From Polytrichum commune (lineage: Eukaryota > Streptophyta > Polytrichopsida > Polytrichales > Polytrichaceae), in the NCBI GenBank assembly GCA_950295325.1, contig OX485807.1:35432440-35496439 (forward strand): 64,000 nucleotides of DNA. Direction: 5' to 3'. How positions within the stretch are numbered: the first letter of the stretch is position 1; each line of letters begins with the position of its first letter. The notes under the pieces were generated by a model. The model was not told the origin of the DNA. It searched no databases and saw nothing but the letters and a program-made list of their open reading frames with translations. A program made the position numbers and the translations under genes. Shown here in pieces: positions 21,669 to 36,262 of the stretch.

Positions 21669-24446
21669 TGTGAGCCCGAATTCGTGCCCACAATTCAACT
21701 TAAACTTTAAAAAGTACAAAACATTGGGATTAACAATTGTTTGAAGTGGTTTAGAGGTAGGAAGGAGTGAAGGTTCAAAAGCTTAGTTAGATTAGAATTA
21801 AAGTTGTGTGACCGTGTGCAATTAAAGAAAAAGACCAAAAACAAGTACTTAGTCTACTTAGGTTGAGTGGCCATTAGGTTGAAGTGGCTTAGGCCAATGA
21901 TAATTGTCTGTTTTAGGTGGGGTGATGTTTGTTTAAGGGGGGGGGTCCCTCCCTGTTAGGATTAGGTAGTTGCTGGATCTCCGGGAACGAGAGGAGGGGG
22001 TCCCCGAGGCTCCTGATGGGAGGCTCTCATAAGGAGAGCGGCGCAAAGAGCCACCGAGCGACGGCGAAGCCCTGCTTCGTTTCGGTGCAGGGGAGATTGA
22101 TAGCAAGCGGGTAATGGAGGGCATGTGACGTCAAATTCGATTCATGAGCTTGTTGCCTGGATCGAAGCCGAATGAGGTTGAAGCACAACATGGCAACAAT
22201 GGACGGTAGACAAGGAGGGCATCAACATTACTTGAATTCTCACAGTTGAGACAAGAGAGTGAGAAGGGAGAGCCGTCGTAGATAGCACTTTGGGCTCTTG
22301 GGGGAATTTGGGCTAAGATGAAGAATGATGCCGAAAAGGGTGCAGCACTGTGGAATCGTGGGCGCTCCGAAGCATCAGGAAGGAGGAATCTAGTGGAGAC
22401 CCGAAAAGTGTGAGGCTGCTGGTTGTGATTCCTCGTAACATTCAGCTAAGAGTAGCAGCGCCAGACTCTCGGACCGCAGCTCGGAGTTGGCACTGGACGC
22501 TCAATTCGGGCGTGGATCAGCTGTCCTCGCATGTCGCAACCCTTGCTAAGCCCCTTTGACAATCTTGCCAATTTTCAATTTTAGCAAAGGTTACGAGCGC
22601 TAACCATTCGCATTCCGCCATGCCAATGGTTAGCTCCTCCTACCCCGGACCTTATAGTTCATAGGAGGGAACCAACCCTCCTACTTTGCTTTTGGGACTC
22701 ACCCCTTAATCAGTAACCATTCCTTAGATGTGGACTTCCATCCATGGAAGTCCAATCCTATGTTGATCATCGCATTGCCGGAGCAACACTACAACAACCC
22801 GAACCATACTAGGCAACTATGGCCTCACAATGGGCCAATGCCCATGGAGGCCTTGCCGTTCGGCCTCGGGTGGGTGAGGCCACACCACCTCACCCATATA
22901 AGCCTCAAGGACTTCACGCGGGGCCCCTACCCCACCTTCAACCAACCTCTTGTCTCTCTACCAAGAGTTGGGGCCAAGTGGACATTTTCCTTTAGCTGCT
23001 GGGCCTAGAATCCCCCAGCAGCTTCAGACCATCATAACTTTCTTGTATGATGTCTGATCATAACAACCAACCATTCCATCTTCATCTACGCTTCACGTAG
23101 ATGCCGATGGACTCCTCACTTGCCCCATTCGGGCAAGATTTAACGAAGTTATGCCTGTTTGAACCTTGGCAGTCCCGGGAATCACTGCCAGGCACTGCTG
23201 TAGCAGGGCGCTGTCCCGGGACAGCGCCCCACTCAAATGGCCATAACTCCTAGCTCACACCTCCGATTGAGGTGTTCTTGAGCTTTCTAGAATCACCACG
23301 CCATGAGCTACGCATAACTCATGGCCTTACCCTTGTGCCTCCTAGTCTTTGTGGGTGGGAGGCGTTCCCAACGCCCGGGGCCCTCACCCACACTAGGATC
23401 ACTTGGGCCCTCTCACCAACGGCGCCACAAGTCCCGGGTGTCACTCCGGGGTTTCCCTTGTGCCCATGGTGTTTCGGGCAGTCCTCATGGAGAGGTGCGC
23501 GACATCGCCATCACCACACCAATGTTATTGTTGTTGCTACAATCGTGGTCGAAGCCGCGAATCGGTGCAGATCCAGGCTCCGCTCGGAGGATTCATAAAT
23601 GGGTGGTGTCGGAGGTGGATTGGGACTGTCCTTCAGTGTTGTGTGTGAGTCGTCGGTCATTGAAGCAGCATGCTCGGAAGGGCGAATGCAGGGCGACAGA
23701 GCGTCGGCAGGGAAACAAATTGAGGAGAAGGAGCTGGTAGTGAATATAATGCCTATGCAGCGGACAGGAGCAGAGTAAGGTTTGCATGCGTCGAAAGCTT
23801 TGGGAGGCAGGAATGTCTCAAGGTCATCAGAGGCTTCGGAAGATAGAGACTGGGCGCCGTGAGAGGCCTTGTGGATTTCTAGTTCGCACACATGACCAAG
23901 CATTTTTAGATCAGTGAGACCAGTGGCATGTGCATAGCCGGTTAAGGAGCAGTGATAGTCAAAGAGCAGTAGAGTTTGAGGTTGCTCCAGAAGCTACTAA
24001 CCTCGAGCTAGTACTCGGCAACTCTGTAGGGAAGTCAAGTAGCAAGCAGTGGGTAAGGGGATGTGACCTGGCATCCATTGAGGGGCCAGCAAGGCCGAAT
24101 GTGATGAGAACATAAGGTGCCTGGGCCTTGGAGTTCGGCACTGGGCATATGTGTGCAATGGTTGATTATAGGGTAGAATTAAAAATAGTGGTGGCATGAA
24201 TGAGTAACAATTAGATTAGAATTTTTGGGCTTGAGTAGGATTTGAGTGTTGCCCTATGTAAGTGTGTGACTGAAGTGTTTATGAACACTTGTGGTTTATT
24301 TAATTAAAAAAAAAGTGTTCATCACACCAAGTCATTAATTGGGTTGGATCTAAGTCCCAATGGTTGATCAAGGCTGCGGGACTTCATGTGAGTTATAAAC
24401 CTTCACCCGGACTACGACGCATAAGGGTGGAGGTTTAGGATTGATA
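21669..24446 (+). mobile_element. Solo LTR, family 2 copy B, interrupted by a family 1 LTR
   Basis: Starts TGTGAGCCC and ends at a decayed terminus GGATTGATA, which differs from copy A's GGGCTGACA only by transitions. Flanks CTTAT (21664-21668) and CTTGT (24447-24451) look like a target duplication with one transition. Removing the nested LTR and its duplication leaves 1800 bp, close to the 1805 bp of copy C. Internal landmarks GCGAAGCCCTGCTTCG and CACCCGGACTACGACGCA match copy A. Non-coding. Confidence 0.6.
22532..23504 (+). mobile_element. Solo LTR, family 1, first copy (973 bp)
   Basis: TGTCGC...GCGACA ends; same length and very high similarity to 26149-27121. Flanks are TCGCA (22527-22531) and TCGCC (23505-23509), a 5-bp duplication with one mismatch. 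No primer binding site or polypurine tract follows, so it is a solo LTR and not one end of a retrotransposon. A TATA-like catataag lies near 22895, and a perfect 24-bp GC-rich palindrome lies at 23206-23229. Confidence 0.8.
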
Positions 24447-26148: not shown

Positions 26149-27121
26149 TGTCGCAACCCTTGCTAGCCCCCTTAACAATCTTGCCAATTTTCAATTCTAG
26201 CAAAGGTTACGAGCACTAACCCTTCGCATTCCGCCATGCTAATGGTTAGCTCTACCTACCCCGGACCTTATAGTTCATAGGAGGGGAACCAACCCTCCTA
26301 CTTTACTTTCGGGACTCACCCCTTCATCAGTAACCAAATCCCAAATGTGGACTTCCATCTATGGAAGTCCAATCCTATGTTGATCATCGCATTGCCGGAG
26401 CAACACTACAACAACCCGAACCATACTAGGCAACTATGGCCTCACAATGGGCCAAAGCCCATGGAGGCCGTGCCGTTCGGCCTCGGGTGGGCGAGGCCAC
26501 ACCACCTCACCCATATAAGCCTCTAGGACTCTACGCGGGGGCCCTACCCCACCGTCAACCAACCTCTTGTCTCTCCACCAAGAGTTGGGGCCAAGTAGAC
26601 ATTTTCCCTTAGCTGCTGGGCCTAGAAGCCCCAAGCAGCTTCAGACCATCATAACTTCCTTGTATGATGTTTGATGTCAACAAGCAACCACTCCATCCTC
26701 ATCTACGCTTCACGTAGATACCAATGGACTCCTCACTTGCCCCATTCGGGCAAGAATTAACGAAGTTATGCCTGTTTGAACCTTGGCAGTCCCGGGAATC
26801 ACTCCCAGGCACTGCTGTAGCAGGGCGCTGTCCCGGGACAGCGCCCCACTCAAATGGCCATAACTCCTAGCTCACACCTCCGATTGAGGTGTTCTTGAGC
26901 TTTCTAGAATCACCACGCCATGAGCTACGCATAGCTCATGGCCTTACCCTTGTGCCTCCTAGTCTCCGTGGGTGAGAGGCGTTCCCAACGCCCGGGGCCC
27001 TCACCCACACTAGGATCACTTGGGCCCTCTCACCAACGGCGCCACAAGTCCCGGGTGTCACTCCGGGGTCCCCCTTGTGCCCATGGTGTTTTGGGCACTC
27101 CTCATGGAGAGGTGCGCGACA
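26149..27121 (+). mobile_element. Solo LTR, family 1, second copy (973 bp)
   Basis: TGTCGC...GCGACA ends, with a perfect 5-bp duplication AACAG at 26144-26148 and 27122-27126. Length is identical to the copy at 22532-23504. The duplication proves an independent insertion. It lies in the opposite orientation relative to its host LTR and at a different internal position than the first copy. The 24-bp palindrome is conserved at 26823-26846. Confidence 0.85.
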
Positions 27122-27359: not shown

Positions 27360-27367
27360 CCAACAGC
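27360..27367 (+). repeat. Left 8-bp target duplication of the 8.1-kb transposon
   Basis: CCAACAGC, identical to 35494-35501. Eight-base duplications are typical of hAT and P-type transposases. Confidence 0.75.
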
Positions 27368-27769
27368 CCCGGGGGGAGCACTCCCCCATTTTTTTTTGGT
27401 AGCGTGCGATCAAATGAAGGGGTATTATAATTGCCTTGGTCCTAAAATTTAGAAAGGGATTCGAAGTAAATTAGCATCACCAAAATGGGTATATTGAATT
27501 TTATAAATAATGAAGGATAGGTGATAATACTAAATTTTAGTTGAAATTTTTTTCTACAATAGGCTTGCCAAAAAACAAAACTAGATTTCAATTTGTTGTG
27601 GAAGTAAATTAGGCTGGTCAAAATGTATCCAATGTCGTCATTTGCATATAGTTATAGCTGATGAATATTGGTGGATGAAAAATATTTACTGTCATATGGA
27701 TGACCTGCTGGGCGTTAGGGTTCAATGTTCCCTCGGTGCTGTAGAGTGCACTGTTTTCATACCACAGCT
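27368..27769 (+). other. Left terminal and subterminal region of the transposon
   Basis: Contains the 15-bp inverted repeat, a CACTCCCCCA and poly-T stretch, then about 350 bp of AT-rich non-coding sequence. Transposase binding sites would be expected here; none is identifiable by eye. Confidence 0.5.
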
Positions 27770-28540
27770 AGGGTTTCTTGTGTTTCTTGACGCTGGTAAC
27801 GTTGCAGCTTGCATGTGAGGGCAAGGGGTTTAGGGTCTATGCTTACAGTCTTCTCTTCCGCGCATACAGGTTTAGGGTGGTACATTCTTGCTAAAGGTTT
27901 CTTGTTTAATCTTCCCTTGGTGCTGTAGATTGCATTGTTGGCATACCACACTAAGGGTTTCTTGTGTTTCTTGTTGCAGCTTGCATGTGAGGGCAAGGGG
28001 TTTAGGGTCTATGCTTACAGTCTTCTTTTCCCCGCATACACTCTTCTCTTCTCTTCCTCACAAACAGTCTTCTAAGGGTTTCTTGTGTTTCTGTCGCAGC
28101 TTGCATGTGAGGGCAAGGGGTTCAGGGTCTATGCTTACAGTCTTCTCTTCCCCCCATATAGTCTTCTCTTCTCTTCCCCGCATACAGTCTTCTAAGGGTT
28201 TCTAAGGGTTTCTTGTGTTTCTGTCACAGCTTGCATGTGAGGGCAAGGGGTTCAGGGTCTATGCTTACAGTCTTCTCTTCCCCGCATACAGTCTTCTCTT
28301 CCGCGCATACAGGTTTAGGGTGCATACAGGTTTATGGGGTACATTCTTGCTATTGGTTTCTTGTTCAATCTTCCGTAGTTGCTGTAGACTGCACTGTTGG
28401 AATACCACACTAAGGGTTTCTTGTACATGTTTCTTGTTGCAGCTTGCATGTGAGGGCAAGGGGTTTAGGGTCTATGCTTACAGTCTTTTCTTCCCCGCAT
28501 ACACTCTTCGTTTTCCCGCATACAGGTTTAGGGTGGTACA
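27770..28540 (+). repeat. Five-copy tandem repeat in the transposase leader
   Basis: Five copies of a unit containing GGTTTCTTGTGTTTCT, GCAGCTTGCATGTGAGGGCA, a GGGTYTAGGGTCTATGCTTAC phrase and a pyrimidine-rich TCTTCTCTTCCCCGCATACA block. The GCAGCTTGCATG anchor falls at about 27804, 27976, 28096, 28226 and 28438. Units carry pyrimidine tracts followed by CAG, resembling splice acceptors, and short frames translating to repeated peptides. It ends just before the transposase start, so it is probably promoter or leader sequence. Confidence 0.75.
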
Positions 28541-28561
28541 TTCTTGCTAAAGGTTTTAGGT

Positions 28562-31500
28562 ATGGCAGTGATTCCGCCGGATAGGGTCACGATGTGGACG
28601 TTGGAGGGGGAGGGTGCAGATCCGGAGTACTTTGGAAAGGTGGAGATTGGAGGCGCGTCGACGCTGCAGGCACTTCGCGTTGCACTGGAAACCAACGATG
28701 CACTAGAGTGGCCTTTCGATTTTTGGGACGCCGAAGATAAGCGGCGCGTGCGGAAGAAGTTGGAGCGCCTCAACGGATTTTCTAAGGAGGTTCATGTTAT
28801 TAGGGTCGAAGAAGGTGAACTTGCCGGAAACAAGCGCCGTCGACTTGGAGATGGGTTGTTCGCTGCCACCATTGTCGAGGCCGCCCCTGCTTTGAGTGGT
28901 GAAGGCGTAGGCGTAGGAGTGGATCCAACTATCTTGCCTGTCGGATCATCTAGGGTTACTGGGAGTGCAGACTCCGCTGAGGTAGAGGATACCCCTCTGA
29001 AATCCAAGCTCTTGCCGAATGACGTCATGGATCGCTACTTGGAGAGGGCAAAGAAGATGAGGGCGGAGTTGAAGAAGGTCGCCATGTCCGACCACGAGTG
29101 GTGGTTGAAGACTTTTGACCTGAATGGTGCTGGAGTAGTGAAACTGTGGTGTGGTGAGTGCAAAAAGGATTGCGGGGGTGGCAGCAAGGATCACACCAAA
29201 GCCCACATCGACAACTTGTTCAACAATTTCAGAAGGTCTCACATTATGAGCACAGCCCACATTCGAAATTTTTGTGCTGCCAAGAACGTGAACTTCGATG
29301 ACCATCCGCAGTCTGAGTCGAAGAATGGAAGGCCACTTACCCTAACTCCAGAGGATCACAAAAGGTTGATTTCTGAGGGGGTTGAGATATTGGAAGGGGT
29401 GAACGTTGATCTTCCAGATGGCCATAAGAAGTTCACAGTGTTCAGAAATTTAACAGCAGAGGACACCAGGTGCTATTGGTTTAAGGTGAAATGCCAATAC
29501 TGTAGGGACATGATGGTGCTCTGCCCGCCAAGGAAGACACTCGAGGTGAATCTCCGAAATCACCTCACTGGTCCAAAGCACAAGAAGGATGTTGAGGTAG
29601 CAGAGCAGCTATTGAAGGAACCAGCGAGGACGGGTCGAGCTGGGCGCCCTAGCAGGTCCACCACAACAAGTTCTCACTCCAATCAAAGCGACCTGCACAC
29701 ATGGTTTAGGACAGCTTCATCAAACAGCGTGGAAGGTACATCTCAAGTAATCGATAGGAACTTAATTGTTGGTTTGATGTGCTATGGATTTCGTGGTCCA
29801 ACTGTTGAATACGGGGGTAATTCTTATGTTGTGAATGCTTTACTTAATGACCCCCACTCTGGTGTTGAATGGTACCCGGAACCTCATCTTCGTGTCGCTG
29901 TAGAAGTTCGTGGTGTTCTTGAACATGTGAGTGGTACTTTTCGGCATAGAAAGTGTATTCGCATGGCTATGTCCTTAAAGCCTTTCTCAAATCTGACTTG
30001 CCCTATGTGTGCCCAGATCCCACGTGAAAATGATTTCAGAATGAGAATCAGAAGAGAGGACCTCGCATTGGTTAAGAGAGGCCACAGAACCACTGCAGGG
30101 GGGATACGGTTAGGGTATTTATCTGTATATGAAGTGTCCAAACATACAAGAGAGTTGTCTAGAAAATATCGGTATGAAAAGCTACACTACTGGCATGCTA
30201 GAACAAGGATTGTTCAATTGAAGGCGAGAAGACCAACGATGCGTGAGAGTGCAATAAACGCCACATCAGATAATAATCTTATGAAATTCTGTAACAACAT
30301 AATTAGTGCCCATCGGATAGGAGCATTTGGAGGCAAACCTGGACTGTGGGACTTCATGAAGGATGTGGCAGGGAACTTGAATAGGAAGGGTTCTGGGTAT
30401 CGCTACAGTGGAAACACTAAATGTTTTTCGCAAGCGATGAGGATCTATGGGGGCCGACGTCTATGTGATTTATTTGCCCTCAATTTTGCTGGACCTAGTT
30501 ATGACACTATTCGAAGGGAGGGTCGTAAAGGTGTACAGTTCATATCAGGGGAACATGCCAAAATATTTGAATCGATTGCCAGAATCTATTCTGATGCTAA
30601 AGTTGCGCATGGGATAACTGGCCCCATCCCGGTTATACTTGCTGAGGATGAAACAAAGGTTAGGGGGCGGGTTTCTTGGGAGGCGAGGTGGGATACTATG
30701 GTGGGGTTTTGTGGGCCGAAAGAGGATCACACTTGTATACCTCATTATAAACCCACTGTTGGAGTTGGTGAGGCAGGTTACAACAAAATGGTAGACTCGT
30801 TCAGGCTGGACAAGGTGGGGGGGTTTGCGAGAGTAATTGTTGTGAACCCCATGCATGATAAACTTCCTCGATTAGTGTTGGTTGCTTGTTGTACCTGCGG
30901 TTGTTTTGATTCAAATTGGGTTAGAAAACAATGGGATAGAATCGATGAGTTGTGGACCAGACATTGCTATGCGGCCGTGGGTCCCATTATAGGACATGCT
31001 AGTGATGGGGACTCCCGTAGAAGGCAGTTAATGCTTTGCGATTATAGAGGTTTAGAGGGGCCGAGGTTAAGTGTGGATTGGGAAGGCTGGGTTTTCACTT
31101 CATCAATGAATGTCGATGGAGAAGCAACCGGCTTGCATGACCAAGACTATATTCACAATGGCAAGAAGCTGTTGAATCCCATTGATAGCAATGTCCGTAC
31201 TTTGAGACTAGGGGGTGATCTGGCCCTACACCAACACATTTGCCAAGTGTTCAACCGTTTCACAGTGGATCAGCATAACTTACTTCAAGAGGATTATGAC
31301 AGAAAGGACCGGCAGAATTGGGCCAGTGCACAAAGATTATGTTCACAGAAAGTTCGAGAGTGCCTACGGTCCCTTCGCTTGTCCACTGATTTGCACCATG
31401 AACGCACACTTGGAACTGAGATGTACCTAGAGATATGTGCTTACTACATTGATATATTTCTTTCCCCGCGTCACGACCTTCGCGCTCGCATTGTGAAAGC

Positions 31501-31987
31501 AGGTAAGGTCTCCTTTTTTTTCCGAATCTGGAAATTATGGATGAGGCACGGTAACCATGGGGTTATGGGAAATACTGAACATGTAGATCCAAAAGTGAAC
31601 TTTGTTAGTCAACAATGTTTTTTGGATATACAGATGTCGTGTCATTTCATTGTTCTGCTTATTTGCCATTTCCGTGACAAGTATCCTCACTTGAGTGTGC
31701 CATTCCACTTGACTGGTAGTGACTCATGCGAGATATTTTTCTCAAAGGTTGGGGGCATGGTGGGCATGGAGAGGGCTTATGATTTTCATGAGTTGGTGTC
31801 TTGTGCAAATATTGTTAATCATTTGTCGCAGATTGAATATGGACACAATGGGATCAAGTTTGCGAGGGCACATAACAAGATGAACAACATCTGGGCCAAG
31901 TTGCATAAACTGGAAGAGGACGAGAGGGAGCCTAACCTTGGAGACTACAGTGTTGTGTCAACTAATGAGGACGTTGTTCGGCCTTAA
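28562..31987 (+). CDS. Transposase-like protein, main frame (1141 residues)
   Basis: The ATG at 28562 is the first true ATG; the frame is open a few codons further upstream only through TTG. Residues about 190-240 form a zinc-finger-like module (C197, C200, later His pair). Residues 311-340 form a C-x2-C-x19-H-x5-H BED-like finger, and another CPMC pair follows later. A Ser/Thr-rich linker carrying many S and H residues separates this from the C-terminal half. There, AEDETK (D696), ASDGDSRRR (D815), HDQDYIHNGKK (H865) and TGSDSCEIFFSK (E1057) occur in the order and context of the DDE catalytic core of P-element/THAP9-type RNase H folds. Only the 8-bp duplication independently supports this. 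The frame stops at 31985, but coding clearly continues in the -1 frame. I do not recognise the exact family. Confidence 0.75.
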   Translation: MAVIPPDRVTMWTLEGEGADPEYFGKVEIGGASTLQALRVALETNDALEWPFDFWDAEDKRRVRKKLERLNGFSKEVHVIRVEEGELAGNKRRRLGDGLFAATIVEAAPALSGEGVGVGVDPTILPVGSSRVTGSADSAEVEDTPLKSKLLPNDVMDRYLERAKKMRAELKKVAMSDHEWWLKTFDLNGAGVVKLWCGECKKDCGGGSKDHTKAHIDNLFNNFRRSHIMSTAHIRNFCAAKNVNFDDHPQSESKNGRPLTLTPEDHKRLISEGVEILEGVNVDLPDGHKKFTVFRNLTAEDTRCYWFKVKCQYCRDMMVLCPPRKTLEVNLRNHLTGPKHKKDVEVAEQLLKEPARTGRAGRPSRSTTTSSHSNQSDLHTWFRTASSNSVEGTSQVIDRNLIVGLMCYGFRGPTVEYGGNSYVVNALLNDPHSGVEWYPEPHLRVAVEVRGVLEHVSGTFRHRKCIRMAMSLKPFSNLTCPMCAQIPRENDFRMRIRREDLALVKRGHRTTAGGIRLGYLSVYEVSKHTRELSRKYRYEKLHYWHARTRIVQLKARRPTMRESAINATSDNNLMKFCNNIISAHRIGAFGGKPGLWDFMKDVAGNLNRKGSGYRYSGNTKCFSQAMRIYGGRRLCDLFALNFAGPSYDTIRREGRKGVQFISGEHAKIFESIARIYSDAKVAHGITGPIPVILAEDETKVRGRVSWEARWDTMVGFCGPKEDHTCIPHYKPTVGVGEAGYNKMVDSFRLDKVGGFARVIVVNPMHDKLPRLVLVACCTCGCFDSNWVRKQWDRIDELWTRHCYAAVGPIIGHASDGDSRRRQLMLCDYRGLEGPRLSVDWEGWVFTSSMNVDGEATGLHDQDYIHNGKKLLNPIDSNVRTLRLGGDLALHQHICQVFNRFTVDQHNLLQEDYDRKDRQNWASAQRLCSQKVRECLRSLRLSTDLHHERTLGTEMYLEICAYYIDIFLSPRHDLRARIVKAGKVSFFFRIWKLWMRHGNHGVMGNTEHVDPKVNFVSQQCFLDIQMSCHFIVLLICHFRDKYPHLSVPFHLTGSDSCEIFFSKVGGMVGMERAYDFHELVSCANIVNHLSQIEYGHNGIKFARAHNKMNNIWAKLHKLEEDEREPNLGDYSVVSTNEDVVRP

Positions 31988-32889
31988 AGCAGGGACTGAA
32001 AGAGGCGCAAAGGATGATTACTAGTTTGAACATGGCCCCAAATCCACAAGCTGCTGCAAAGCTTAAGTTGTGGTTTGATAAACCATGGATAGTTGAGCGT
32101 GCAGACAAACAATCTTTTACCTCGGCGGCCTCTTCTAAACATGTACGTGGTGAAGACAGCGACATGGAAGTGCTTCGAGAAGATATACAGGAAAAAGAGG
32201 GCGAGCTCCAGCGAGATATTGAACCTCCCGTGGCAAAGCTTGTGGAAGAGGACCTCATTGATGATGGTGTCCCGGCAATTGATGTCGTGGAGAGTGAAAC
32301 GCGCGATATTATTTTTGAGATGCTGAGCAGCCACGAAGAACATGTGCAATCAATCCCTGTTCCTGCAAAAATAGAAGCCTTTGTGGAGTTTGATGGGCAC
32401 AGGATATTCAAATCCACGTTGGTCGGGCAGCTTAATGGTAACCCCTTCTTGTCGAAGGATAGGTTGACACGGGTAAGGAATTCCTTGTACTTTAACAATA
32501 GTGAAGATTATCTAAGAGCGGCTCAATGCTCCAATACATGTTTTGTTGGAATTGGGTCTAATGTCGGAGTATACTTTGTACAACGCACTACAGTTACGAG
32601 GCTGTCTACAGTGACTGCCGCAAAGAAAAGGGGAAATTCGCTAGCTAAAAAATGTGGCAGGGTTGCTTCGACCATGCGAGGGGTGGACGAGGGCACCTGG
32701 TGGGTTGGCCGAATTCAGAAGATGCGAAGGCGGGTTGGAGGGACCTCGTGGGGGTCTTTGAAGCACCCTGTGGATATTGCCAACCGCGAGGTCTTTACAG
32801 GGAAAAAACTAACATTGTTTCTAATGTCGAAGTCATATTGCATTACTACACCCGAGCACCTGGTCAGTATAAATTCAAGTATAACTTGA
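31981..32889 (+). CDS. Transposase-like protein, continuation in -1 frame (broken or frameshifted)
   Basis: Directly at the stop of the main frame, the -1 frame reads ALKQGLKEAQRMITSL, a natural helical continuation. It runs through an acidic linker, FKSTLVGQLNGNPFLSKDRL, and a W-W-x-G-R-x-QKMRRR stretch followed by KHPVDIANRE, reminiscent of BAH-like chromatin-binding folds. An ATG at 32014 could start a separate protein, but sequence upstream of it looks equally coding. The frame loses sense after the A6 run at 32803-32808 and ends at 32889. One lost base at about 31980 would explain the break; I cannot tell mutation from assembly error or recoding. Confidence 0.55.
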   Translation, partial: ALKQGLKEAQRMITSLNMAPNPQAAAKLKLWFDKPWIVERADKQSFTSAASSKHVRGEDSDMEVLREDIQEKEGELQRDIEPPVAKLVEEDLIDDGVPAIDVVESETRDIIFEMLSSHEEHVQSIPVPAKIEAFVEFDGHRIFKSTLVGQLNGNPFLSKDRLTRVRNSLYFNNSEDYLRAAQCSNTCFVGIGSNVGVYFVQRTTVTRLSTVTAAKKRGNSLAKKCGRVASTMRGVDEGTWWVGRIQKMRRRVGGTSWGSLKHPVDIANREVFTGKKLTLFLMSKSYCITTPEHLVSINSSIT

Positions 32890-33029
32890 CGGACTCTAAA
32901 TGGATTAGTCTTGAGTCGATAATAACCAATGTTACTCTTACTTATAAGAAAGAGACTCAAGTTTATACCTTGGACAGGGGCGATGCCGAGAACTTGAATG
33001 AGTATGTATCTAACAATAGACTGGAATAG
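32803..33029 (+). CDS. Transposase-like protein, C-terminal tail in a further -1 frame
   Basis: After the A6 run at 32803-32808 the protein-like sequence continues in the next -1 frame (TNIVSNVEVILHYYTRAP, then a region with SKWISLESI and YTLDRGDAENLNEYV) to a TAG at 33027-33029. Together with the preceding segments a product of about 1490 residues would result. The frame is open back to 32652, so the exact crossing point is not certain. Confidence 0.5.
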
Positions 33030-34015
33030 CATTTGAAGATATCATCTATAGGGTTTAGGGTTTATATGGGCTGGTGTAGGGTCTATATGGGCTGCTCCTC
33101 CAGCCAATTCCATTGTTAAAAGCTGAGCTTAAGGAAGCCCAGAGAACTCCTCAGTCTATCATAAAGACAGGAAACAGCTCAGCAGCTGCACAGGTAACCA
33201 ACTAAGTTGCCTACACTTCATGCTTTTTGTGTTCTTTGCATGAATGGGTTTAGGGTTCAGGGTTCATGCTTTTTGTGTTCTTTGCTTGCTATTAGTAAGG
33301 AGATGTTAGTTGAGGGGAGATGAATAGGCGGCTACTAAGGGTTGAGAGTTGACTGTAACTGCTATGAAGGTTTGAGGTTTGCTGATGGTTTTTTAAGGGC
33401 TTGGAGTGGAGTTCGCATTCAATACCTCGCCTCCAATTGCTGATACCAAGGTATGGGCGCCACCAATTGCAAATAAGAGTGTCAATTGAAGAAAAAACTT
33501 ACCTCAGGTGCGTTGAGCTAAACCAGCTAATGGGTGCTGAACTGGTTTTGAGGGTGCAACCATCACCCAGAATGTTAAGCCCCTAAACCCAAACCCCTAC
33601 TTGCTGGCTGCTCTGATGGATTTGTTGGCTGTGGCAGCAGGGTTAGAGATCGTTAGCTAAAGTAGATGCTACAGTAGTTGCTGATTTCCGCTACTAAGAT
33701 TTGAGAGTTGAAGTTGATTCTAGTTGTTGGACGCTGCTATTGTTGTGCCTGTGAACTAAGGGTGCGTTTTCTAAACCCTACCTTGTTTATGTTTCACCTT
33801 GGAGCACATGTGCTTCATTGTTGGGTTCCTTGTTTTGCAGGATGTTATACTTGTGAATGTAGAGATAATCGTTAGGGTTAAGTGTTGTTTGGGGAATTCA
33901 ATGTTAAATTTTTCTGGGGTTCAGGGTTTGGTTACTGATAGGATCACACAGTTCTCAAGTGGTTTTTCCTGATGGTTTTAGGTATTTGTCATAGTGGGTA
34001 CCCTGACACGCTGCA
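33030..34015 (+). other. Spacer between the two transposon genes, with splice-like signals
   Basis: Contains GGGTTTAGGGTTTATATGGG just after the transposase stop, a donor-like CACAG|gtaacc at about 33192, and an acceptor-like ttgttttgcag|GATG at about 33840. These could delimit an intron in the leader of the 168-residue gene. No coding frame beyond short pieces. Confidence 0.4.
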
Positions 34016-34522
34016 ATGGAGGTGACTTCATTGAATGGGCAAAATATTGTGTCTGATGCACTCCTTGGACATGTCCTTGAATTCTGTTGCCTGTCTGGAT
34101 GTCCATGGGTACGGTATGAACGCCGTCACGTGGACCGCGGCGATTTGTTGAAGGTGCTGACAACTTTGATGAGGGTTTCAAAGAAGACCCGGGAGAATGC
34201 TACAGACACGGTGCAGATTGCAGCGCTCCGGCTGGCGGGCCACGACGTGGCACTTATGGCAGGCTTATCTCCAGCTGAGAAGATGTCATATGCCCTTGAA
34301 GGGTTTGACATGAATATTGAGGTATTCTCCAAGGATTGGAAACTTGAAATCCCAATCCCGGAACACTTAAGGTCGAGCTCGCTGCAGGAGCTAAGCGTAG
34401 ACGAGTTGTATCGTCTTCGGGGACTTATTCATGGAGGTTGGGCGGAGGAGATCACAGCTTGTAGAGGAGACGGGCAATCCGAGTCTCCCAATGTGTGGGT
34501 GACACCGGCACACCGAAGTTGA
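34016..34522 (+). CDS. Unrecognised 168-residue protein, cargo gene of the transposon
   Basis: ATG start with purine-rich context (GCAATGGAGG). Uninterrupted 168-residue frame, GC-richer than its flanks, predicted soluble, with no signal peptide or membrane segment. The C-terminal half has SPAEKMSYALEGFD and a Leu-rich LQELSVDELYRLRGLIHGGW. I do not recognise a family. It lies inside the transposon, in the same orientation as the transposase gene and about 1 kb downstream. The TGA stop is followed after a single base by a strong donor (TGAG|gtaagtc), and an acceptor-like ttatgcag| lies near 34633, so the 3' leader may be spliced. It could be a second transposition protein or a fragment of a spliced longer one. 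Confidence 0.55.
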   Translation: MEVTSLNGQNIVSDALLGHVLEFCCLSGCPWVRYERRHVDRGDLLKVLTTLMRVSKKTRENATDTVQIAALRLAGHDVALMAGLSPAEKMSYALEGFDMNIEVFSKDWKLEIPIPEHLRSSSLQELSVDELYRLRGLIHGGWAEEITACRGDGQSESPNVWVTPAHRS

Positions 34523-35493
34523 GGTAAGTCAAGCCTATAACTTTTCAAGTTTTTGCGAGTGTTTGTGCACAATTGGTTGCAGATAATACACTTTGAATGC
34601 CACTTATATGAAGTGTTTTCTGGTGTTATGCAGGTTTACAGGTGACAGCGCATTGATTGTGAGGTTTAGGTGTTATGCAGGTGTCTTCGCAATCATTCTG
34701 ATGCAGTGAAAGGGCTTTGTGGTTTTCTGAATAGATAGATAGAAACATGTTTTCGTGAATAGATGTTTGTATAGAAATACCCTAAATGGACACTTGTGTT
34801 TATTTACAACTTGTAAGTTACATGGATTGTGTTTGTGAACACAATCCTAAACTATTCACCATAACCTAAACATTACACTTGAACTGTTTTTTTGTGTGCA
34901 CTCATGCATGTTGGAATGTTTCTCCCTAAACAATGCGAAATGGACACATGCGTCTATGTAGACATTGTAAATGACTTGTTTTGTGTTTGTGAACACAATT
35001 TCAACTCTTTAGTGCAAGTTCAATTACACTTCAGCTCACACTTGGACTGTTTTTTTGGATGTTGAATGTTGACTGTTTCTTTGTATGTTGAATGTTGAAT
35101 GTTTTTGTTTGTAGCACACAAGCAATTTTCTGTATGCATTTCAGTGACAGAAAAAACTACGTACACCACCAGATCACTGTCCTGATAGACCATTATCTCT
35201 TTTATAATTGTCTGCAGATAATCAGCATGAAAACAACAATCCATATGTATATTTATAGTATAAATAGGTGCTCTAATTGCTCTGATGGTGTATTTATAAA
35301 TAAGTTAGCCTACAAATAATTAGTCCAACAAAAAAATTATAATGAAAGGTAGGGCCCATGAAATGAACAGATTTTAGAAATTTAGGTAAACATAGGCCTA
35401 CAAAAATCCACGAAATTTACATACATAGCCCCCCTATAATGGGGGCTTGAACGCACGTGATCAACGAACACCCTATCTAGTGTTCCCCCCGAG
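34523..35493 (+). repeat. Right subterminal region with an internal duplication
   Basis: Two diverged copies, at about 34780-34890 and 34924-35053, share CCCTAAA, AAATGGACAC, GTGTTTGTGAACACAA and a T-run after ACTGT. The rest is AT-rich and ends in the right terminal repeat (35479-35493). No gene recognised. Confidence 0.5.
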
Positions 35494-36262
35494 CCAACAG
35501 CGGCATTCCAGCTTAGGCGTCCTCAACAAAATGAGCGGCATGCTTGAATTCTGGTGTAGAGAGTTCAGATCCCTTCCTCGAGTCCGCTGCAGTCGGTGAG
35601 GCTCCCCTGGCAGCTGCATTGTAATGGCAATACATCGTGTTGTTTTATTCTCTCGATTCCAGCTTCCCCAACCCCTTTCCGTACGAGCTCCAGGCGCCAA
35701 GTAGCTTTTCCAGTCATGAAAAAACAACGGGGCACAGACCCCCCCGCTCTTCGGCCAGCACCATCCTCTCGCTCGTCATCCTCCCTCTCCTTATGCGGCA
35801 GGTTCACAGATTCTCCCTCAAAAACCAAGACTACCCTCTCCCGCTTCATCTCTCTCTTACCTCCAGGTAGTGTCGAATGAGGGCCTCTGAACCTCGTACC
35901 TCCGGACCCCTCCCGTTCGGAGCCTTATCTCCCATGGATTCCAAGAGCTCTCCCACTCGCCCCTCTTCCCTAACTGCCACCTCCTCCTACCTAGCCTATC
36001 CCACACAAGGCAACCTACCTCTTCCTAAACCTGTTGGCCCCTAAATTGTAACTTGGTCCCTAGGCCCTTTCACTATAATTATTTTTGGTTTTTCTTTCTT
36101 TAAAGGTTCCTAACATTGGCATCTTAACTCTATTATACTTAACTTTTGAAACTTAAATTTTTTTCTCTCCCTACAACTAATTCAAACAATTACAAATTCT
36201 ACGGTGTTGATGTTTTTTAAGATTAAGGTAAAATGTGGGCACAATATTGGGCTTACAGTTGA

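Follow-up and report, generated by a model that had tools for sequence, protein, structure and literature searches.

A probable new lineage of cut-and-paste DNA transposon in Polytrichum commune, with a transposase that may stand on the P-element side

What kind of mobile element carries an unusually large transposase-like gene in the plant Polytrichum commune, and to which transposases is its enzyme related? The question is raised by an 8,126-bp element in a stretch of 64,000 nucleotides, here called the window (GenBank assembly GCA_950295325.1, contig OX485807.1, positions 35,432,440 to 35,496,439 of the forward strand). An initial annotation, made from the sequence alone, had described it as a complete DNA transposon with two genes, whose transposase would belong to the P-element/hAT side of the RNase H transposases. 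Based on the analysis below, we regard the window element as a non-intact member of a cut-and-paste DNA transposon family with several lineages, whose enzyme most likely stands on the P-element side or in a sister lineage of it; to this reading as a whole we assign a probability of about 0.7. We describe the family as a new lineage of such transposons, probably on the P side. Unless stated otherwise, genome searches were run against the plant's own assembly (408 Mb, 64 contigs).

A genuine insertion with inverted ends and a target duplication

The element is bounded at positions 27368 and 35493 of the window, exactly as first described, and the features that delimit it are the following.

27360-27367, no strand: left copy of the target site duplication, CCAACAGC, 8 bp
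27368-27382, plus strand: 5' terminal inverted repeat (TIR), CCCGGGGGGAGCACT, 15 bp
35479-35493, minus strand: 3' TIR, CTCGGGGGGAACACT when read inward, 15 bp
35494-35501, no strand: right copy of the target site duplication, CCAACAGC, 8 bp

An uninterrupted target site, as expected for a TIR DNA transposon, was found elsewhere in the genome: the two flanks joined with one CCAACAGC match the site C3:33506157 with 87% identity over all 266 nt, and a second site, C1:21515702, with 85% over 231 of the 266 nt. The window element is a genuine mobile-element insertion, and the initial description of a complete DNA transposon, with the ends and the 8-bp duplication in the sequence as stated, is upheld. 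Since the terminal repeats are inverted and not direct, a retroelement was rejected.

The flanks had also been taken for the halves of one long terminal repeat (LTR). An older repeat is indeed split between the two flanks, but this repeat is not the adjoining LTR-like unit. The latter, a 973-bp direct repeat, lies at 22532-23504 and 26149-27121, with 94.7% identity between the two copies. The unit at 26149-27121 is absent from the uninterrupted C3 site, and the transposon lies 246 bp beyond it; the unit is thus a separate insertion and the transposon is not within it.

Copies, short derivatives and sister lineages

The end sequence CYCGGGGGGARCACT has 24 exact matches in the assembly, versus 2 for the reversed pattern. 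Nine facing pairs, 1.2-8.9 kb in length, account for 18 of the 24, so that inverted terminal repeats recur among the copies, and an 8-bp duplication flanks all nine pairs (eight exact, one with seven of eight positions). The further copies with shared ends and duplications on which the initial annotation depended do, in this way, exist. An alternative would be a host gene, or a chance arrangement, accompanied by end-like sequences; given the excess of end matches, the duplication at every pair, the uninterrupted site and the dispersed copies, this explanation was rejected and we consider it extremely improbable.

With the terminal 273 bp (5' end) and 210 bp (3' end) as queries, 25 and 21 matches were obtained, respectively, and their pairing by hand gave 19 elements: six measure 7.5-8.9 kb, and 13 are short, at 0.6-3.4 kb. 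Of the short elements, three were already among the nine CYCGGGGGGARCACT pairs. The flanks were read for nine of the other ten: three have exact duplications, two have one mismatch, one has two mismatches, two have none, and one (C5:291212) has a one-mismatch duplication only with shifted ends, which may be due to chance, since 289 shifts were compared and the best was taken. Considering all 23 elements with both ends read, the duplication is exact in 16, has one mismatch in four and two mismatches in one, and is absent in two, a fixed-length target duplication as in TIR DNA transposons. In the three short elements that were compared, each end retains some 200-270 bp or more, which fits derivatives moved in trans.

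Searched with the transposase protein, the genome gave at least 44 matches, with 40 of 669 candidates scored and identities from 100% down to 23%. Sister lineages are about 48-57% identical to the protein of L018, a copy with an intact gene (see below), and have the same kind of ends. Among 14 sequences scanned for ends, four (L021, L022, L023 and L025) have a facing pair, with the ends CNCGGGGG, and exact 8-bp duplications. The L021 lineage has one more copy, its third, with ends of this kind and an exact 8-bp duplication. Nine of the 14 have no facing end pair, most of them being too short to hold both ends. In L028 the best facing pair has six of the eight duplication positions mismatched. 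No C-N-CGGGG ends were found inside the 9.9 kb of L024.

A large transposase gene, broken in the window copy

The first of the two genes, open reading frame (ORF) 1, is present in the window as a remnant.

28562-33029, plus strand: transposase gene (ORF1) remnant, open to 31987, with the rest in two other frames after two frameshifts
29150-29260, plus strand: first N-terminal Cys/His motif, C-x2-C ... H-x5-H (C199, C202, H229 and H235 of L018; all four in 19 of 19 distinct copies)
29492-29581, plus strand: second Cys/His motif (C313, H336 and H342 of L018)
30647-30649, plus strand: candidate catalytic D696 in AEDETKV (D698 of L018; 19 of 19 copies)
31004-31006, plus strand: candidate catalytic D815 in SDGDSRRR (D817 of L018; 19 of 19 copies)
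31145-31156, plus strand: DxxH motif DYIH, with H865 (D864 and H867 of L018, each in 19 of 19 copies)
31451-31453, plus strand: D964 in YIDIF (D966 of L018; 18 of 19 copies), lined up with the GTP-binding D444 of the P-element transposase
31730-31732, plus strand: candidate catalytic E1057 in CEIFFSKVGG (E1059 of L018; 17 of the 18 copies that cover the position)

The initial annotation took 28562-31987 for the whole gene, which does not hold: the frame in L018 is longer, and the gene in the window continues, twice frame-shifted, to about 33029, so the ORFs at 32014-32889 and 32652-33029 are its tail. Elsewhere the gene is intact, as one frame of 1,496 codons (1,496 aa) in L018 and as stop-to-stop frames of 1,518 codons in L021 and in L022, 1,493 in L023 and 1,502 in L024. 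Between the window gene and L018, the ratio of nonsynonymous to synonymous substitution rates (dN/dS) is 0.162 over 1,139 codons; the remaining 14 ORF1 comparisons have saturated synonymous sites.

Conservation of residues was assessed in 19 distinct copies, after four rows that repeated the same loci had been dropped from 23. The four residues first put forward as catalytic, D696, D815, H865 and E1057, correspond to positions 698, 817, 867 and 1059 of L018 and proved to be nearly invariant. K932 of L018 is kept in 16 of the 19 copies, and the cysteine that follows C313 is not retained in every lineage. A single-sequence fold of the core reached a mean predicted local distance difference test score (pLDDT) of 34. 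The conserved residues and their order would fit a transposase with an RNase H-type D-D-(DxxH)-E site.

The enzyme compared with the P-element transposase

Two features of the P superfamily are present: an 8-bp duplication, and the residues D, D, [C/D]xxH and E in this order, given as its signature in PMC8230255. The surroundings of the motifs were compared as well. Out of all 569 positions of the P-element transposase, the windows around D698 and E1059 rank D230 and E531 first at half-widths 6 and 8, with the E window falling to 7th and 6th at half-widths 10 and 14. For the D817 window, D303 comes second among 38 Asp at half-widths 6 and 8, and the H867 window is unremarkable. Random window sets did as well against P in 5, 1 and 4 of 20,000 cases (half-widths 6, 8 and 10), a control that assumes positions chosen beforehand and is not an independent proof, as the four positions were named in the initial annotation, possibly with P motifs in mind. 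At the same half-widths, 6,451, 5,110 and 6,396 random sets were as good against Hermes (hAT), and 8,606, 11,001 and 9,332 against a Mutator-like element (MULE) of the plant's own genome.

Moreover, a global alignment from DxxH to E, a stretch picked with the motifs known, places D864, H867, K932, D966 and E1059 on D339, H342, K400, D444 and E531 of P, with K932 and D966 not being anchors. In this alignment, 4 of 400 shuffles were as good, and the core alignment was above 248 of 250; five other stretches of the family against the same P region gave Z from -1.6 to 1.6. In the P-element transposase, D444 binds GTP (PMC8230255) and K400 contacts the transferred strand (PMC10983969). Judged from these sequence comparisons, the enzyme most likely belongs to the P-element side or is a sister lineage of it.

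Several results weigh against this placement. Pfam gave no credible match in five members of four lineages; when six pieces of the transposase were searched at E values up to 10, the best reached 0.015, with 15.7 bits versus a cut-off of 27. A sequence search of the PDB found no match (one chance-level hit, E 0.64). Against the P-element transposase, hhalign gave E values of 0.11-0.27, which are not significant, and at least 8 of the 30 shuffles did better; an unanchored comparison of all positions was not above shuffles. The anchored alignment from H to E also gave Z 2.4 for Hermes (5 of 400 shuffles) and Z 2.0 for the MULE (11 of 400). In the whole-core alignment with P, D817 and H867 fall off their counterparts, and the first two Asp are 119 apart versus 73 in P. 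The Pfam model of the P-type RNase H domain has no match in the genome, but it shows little, as its 14 controls were equally silent. None of the Pfam scans, one of which took the N-terminal 298 aa with E values up to 10, reported a THAP domain, which would mark a P element of the animal type; according to PMC7776569, THAP domains are confined to animals. Relatives were also sought in viral contigs (79 stretches) and prokaryote genomes (53 stretches), with none confirmed.

These results bear on the possibility of a separate superfamily, no closer to P than to hAT, MuDR, Kolobok or Dada, which likewise have a C/DxxH motif. The lack of a credible profile match and of a significant similarity to P without anchors would fit it, as would the CYCGGGGGG ends, which are unlike the zebrafish P-like ends CATACCTGTCAAC (PMC10983969). 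The motif ranks and the line-up with K400 and D444 speak against it, and we hold it to be unlikely.

A divergent hAT transposon is another alternative, which we consider a good deal less likely still. The transposases of this superfamily also count among the RNase H enzymes and carry a C/DxxH motif, and the duplications usually have 8 bp. The family resembles hAT elements (Hermes, Ac) in the 8-bp duplication and the C/DxxH motif; the E window ranks first to third of all Hermes positions, depending on width, the alignment from H to E with Hermes is the one given above, and the N-terminal Cys/His motifs recall BED-type fingers. Against this, the windows of the first D, the second D and the H miss the catalytic residues of Hermes (same-residue ranks 28 of 28, 12 of 28 and 9 of 12 at half-width 8), the core alignment has Z 0.4 with 77 of 250 shuffles as good, and no hAT domain is among the Pfam families reported for the five members. 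Since the catalytic motifs do not match as a set, hAT was rejected as the nearest relative. As for the P-element/hAT side named in the initial annotation, the motif-rank test and the gapped alignment thus favor P over hAT, weakly, although the unanchored comparison with P is not significant. The P side is our leading, weakly favored reading of these sequence data, and membership in the P superfamily is not established.

Other kinds of element were set aside. MULEs are abundant in this genome (at least 142 matches, with 150 of 271 candidates scored) and belong with the family to the C/DxxH group. The motifs of one MULE of the plant's own genome are not shared (core alignment Z 1.7, 13 of 250 shuffles), and MULE was rejected as the nearest relative. 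The target duplications of MULEs have about 9 bp, versus 8 bp here. To our knowledge, the motifs of the KDZ group (Zisupton, Kyakuja and Dileera) differ from those of the family. KDZ was rejected, as its Pfam model matches neither the five members nor the genome (in the genome scan the controls were silent), although Zisupton is like the family in its 8-bp duplications (PMC12730594). Kolobok was rejected since the duplications have 8 bp of varied sequence and are not TTAA, the Kolobok duplication given in PMC9587614.

Subterminal box and leader

Inside the terminal repeats, a short box is found at both ends, and a repetitive leader precedes the transposase gene.

27402-27413, plus strand: subterminal box GCGTGCGATCAA, starting at position 35 of the 5' end
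35447-35458, minus strand: subterminal box ACGTGCGTTCAA, starting at position 36 of the 3' end
27720-28535, no strand: 5' leader of imperfect repeats, with a unit of about 130 bp found by Tandem Repeats Finder (TRF) at 27951-28301; its length varies among copies

The 12-bp box ACGTGCGANCAA, or a near-match, starts 35-41 bp in at all 14 ends of seven elements from four lineages. It agrees at 9 or more of 12 positions at 13 of the ends and at 8 at the other, versus 64 of 2,000 interior 120-bp stretches that reach 9. Because the box was derived from the same data, the 12 of 12 at one end is built in; moreover, one lineage supplies four of the seven elements. As the box reads inward at both element ends and is kept while the transposases differ at about half of their residues, it would be the best candidate for a transposase-binding site.

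About 60 bp in from the 3' end, the window element, L018, L021 and L023 carry a second G-run (five or six G, followed by CTAT or TAT), which the first 70 bp of the 5' ends lack. The leader at 27720-28535 contains six TTTAGGG telo-box-like motifs; the 56 kb outside the element have five TTTAGGG and four CCCTAAA. L020 is 821 bp longer overall, with more leader repeats.

The second gene

34016-34522, plus strand: second gene (ORF2), 168 aa, with counterparts in six long copies of the window lineage

The initial annotation described two genes, and both are present in the window copy. In six comparisons among four copies of the window lineage, ORF2 has a dN/dS of 0.31-0.55. Weak counterparts were found in L025 (E 1e-12, against the window protein), L010 (1e-5), L024 (1e-4) and L023 (2e-6, last 33 residues). 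L021 and L022 gave none at E values up to 1, and in both only some 740 bp lie beyond the transposase gene; this counts against a two-gene system, with L021 being the most intact lineage. ORF2 is thus conserved in its lineage but not family-wide. It is a real gene of the window lineage and not indispensable to the family; its absence from L021 and L022 means either that this lineage can do without the second protein or that other lineages acquired it, and the protein is best seen as an accessory one. Its single-sequence fold has a mean pLDDT of 38.

Recent movement

Two copies of a sister lineage with whole 1,518-codon frames, L011 (C5:50059600) and L012 (C5:50081318), lie 21.7 kb apart and have two differences in 6,432 bases, an identity of 99.97%. 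The elements that hold them have differing target duplications, GAAATCAC and CCTTAAAC, and therefore represent separate recent insertions and not a segmental duplication. The movement was very recent and perhaps local. L021 and L022 share 99.5% identity over 8.4 kb and lie on different chromosomes. Recent movement is here deduced from the genome sequence.

Comparison with known systems and occurrence in plants

According to the literature (PMC7776569, PMC8230255 and PMC10983969), the P superfamily, with the Drosophila P element and zebrafish Pdre2/THAP9, shares with the family the 8-bp duplication, short inverted ends with a subterminal inverted repeat, the D-D-(DxxH)-E order, in which a long insertion separates DxxH from E, and internally deleted derivatives. 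In Pdre2, ends of 13 bp are combined with a distant 12-bp subterminal inverted repeat (PMC10983969). The functional residues K400 and D444 also line up. Unlike P, the family has no significant profile similarity, two Cys/His motifs with no THAP domain reported, a much longer enzyme, a second gene in some lineages, GGGGGG ends and a plant host.

The LEAFY gene marks the land-plant line, and its SAM domain has four matches over the cut-off in the assembly (C1:40569930, C7:8639033, C1:62297762 and C7:14030880).

The initial annotation had called such an element unusual for a plant, which holds only in part. The part consulted of a 2022 review (PMC9033089) has a table of six TIR superfamilies in land plants, Tc1-Mariner, hAT, Sola, MuDR-Foldback, PIF-Harbinger and CACTA, without P. 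A 2015 survey (PMC4438587) lists P-element among the superfamilies present in all groups studied, land plants included, and goes against it. P elements are described from animals in the literature consulted (PMC7776569, PMC10983969). Among the titles listed in the literature searches, none dealt with such an element in land plants, and the family may already be catalogued, for example in Repbase.

A possible mechanism and its meaning

The transposase would bind both ends via the 12-bp subterminal box, probably by its N-terminal Cys/His motifs, bring the two ends together and cut with an RNase H-type D-D-E site that has a DxxH motif and a long insertion. The target would be opened by staggered cuts 8 bp apart and the element joined to it there. 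The insertion domain may, like its P-element counterpart, bind a nucleotide. Since its transposase gene is broken, the window copy would need a helper copy, and short derivatives would be moved in trans. A tentative and broader proposal, to which we give somewhat less than even odds, is a new superfamily-level plant lineage that kept or evolved a P-like nucleotide-binding insertion domain, has its own zinc-finger-like end-binding module and subterminal box, gained an accessory second protein in some lineages or lost it in others, and moved recently.

A plant family with an unclassified large transposase of this kind would widen the list of TIR superfamilies in land plants, and it would test whether the GTP-using chemistry of the P element reaches plants. 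With intact enzymes, near-identical recent insertions and defined ends, it would be a tractable candidate for excision assays.

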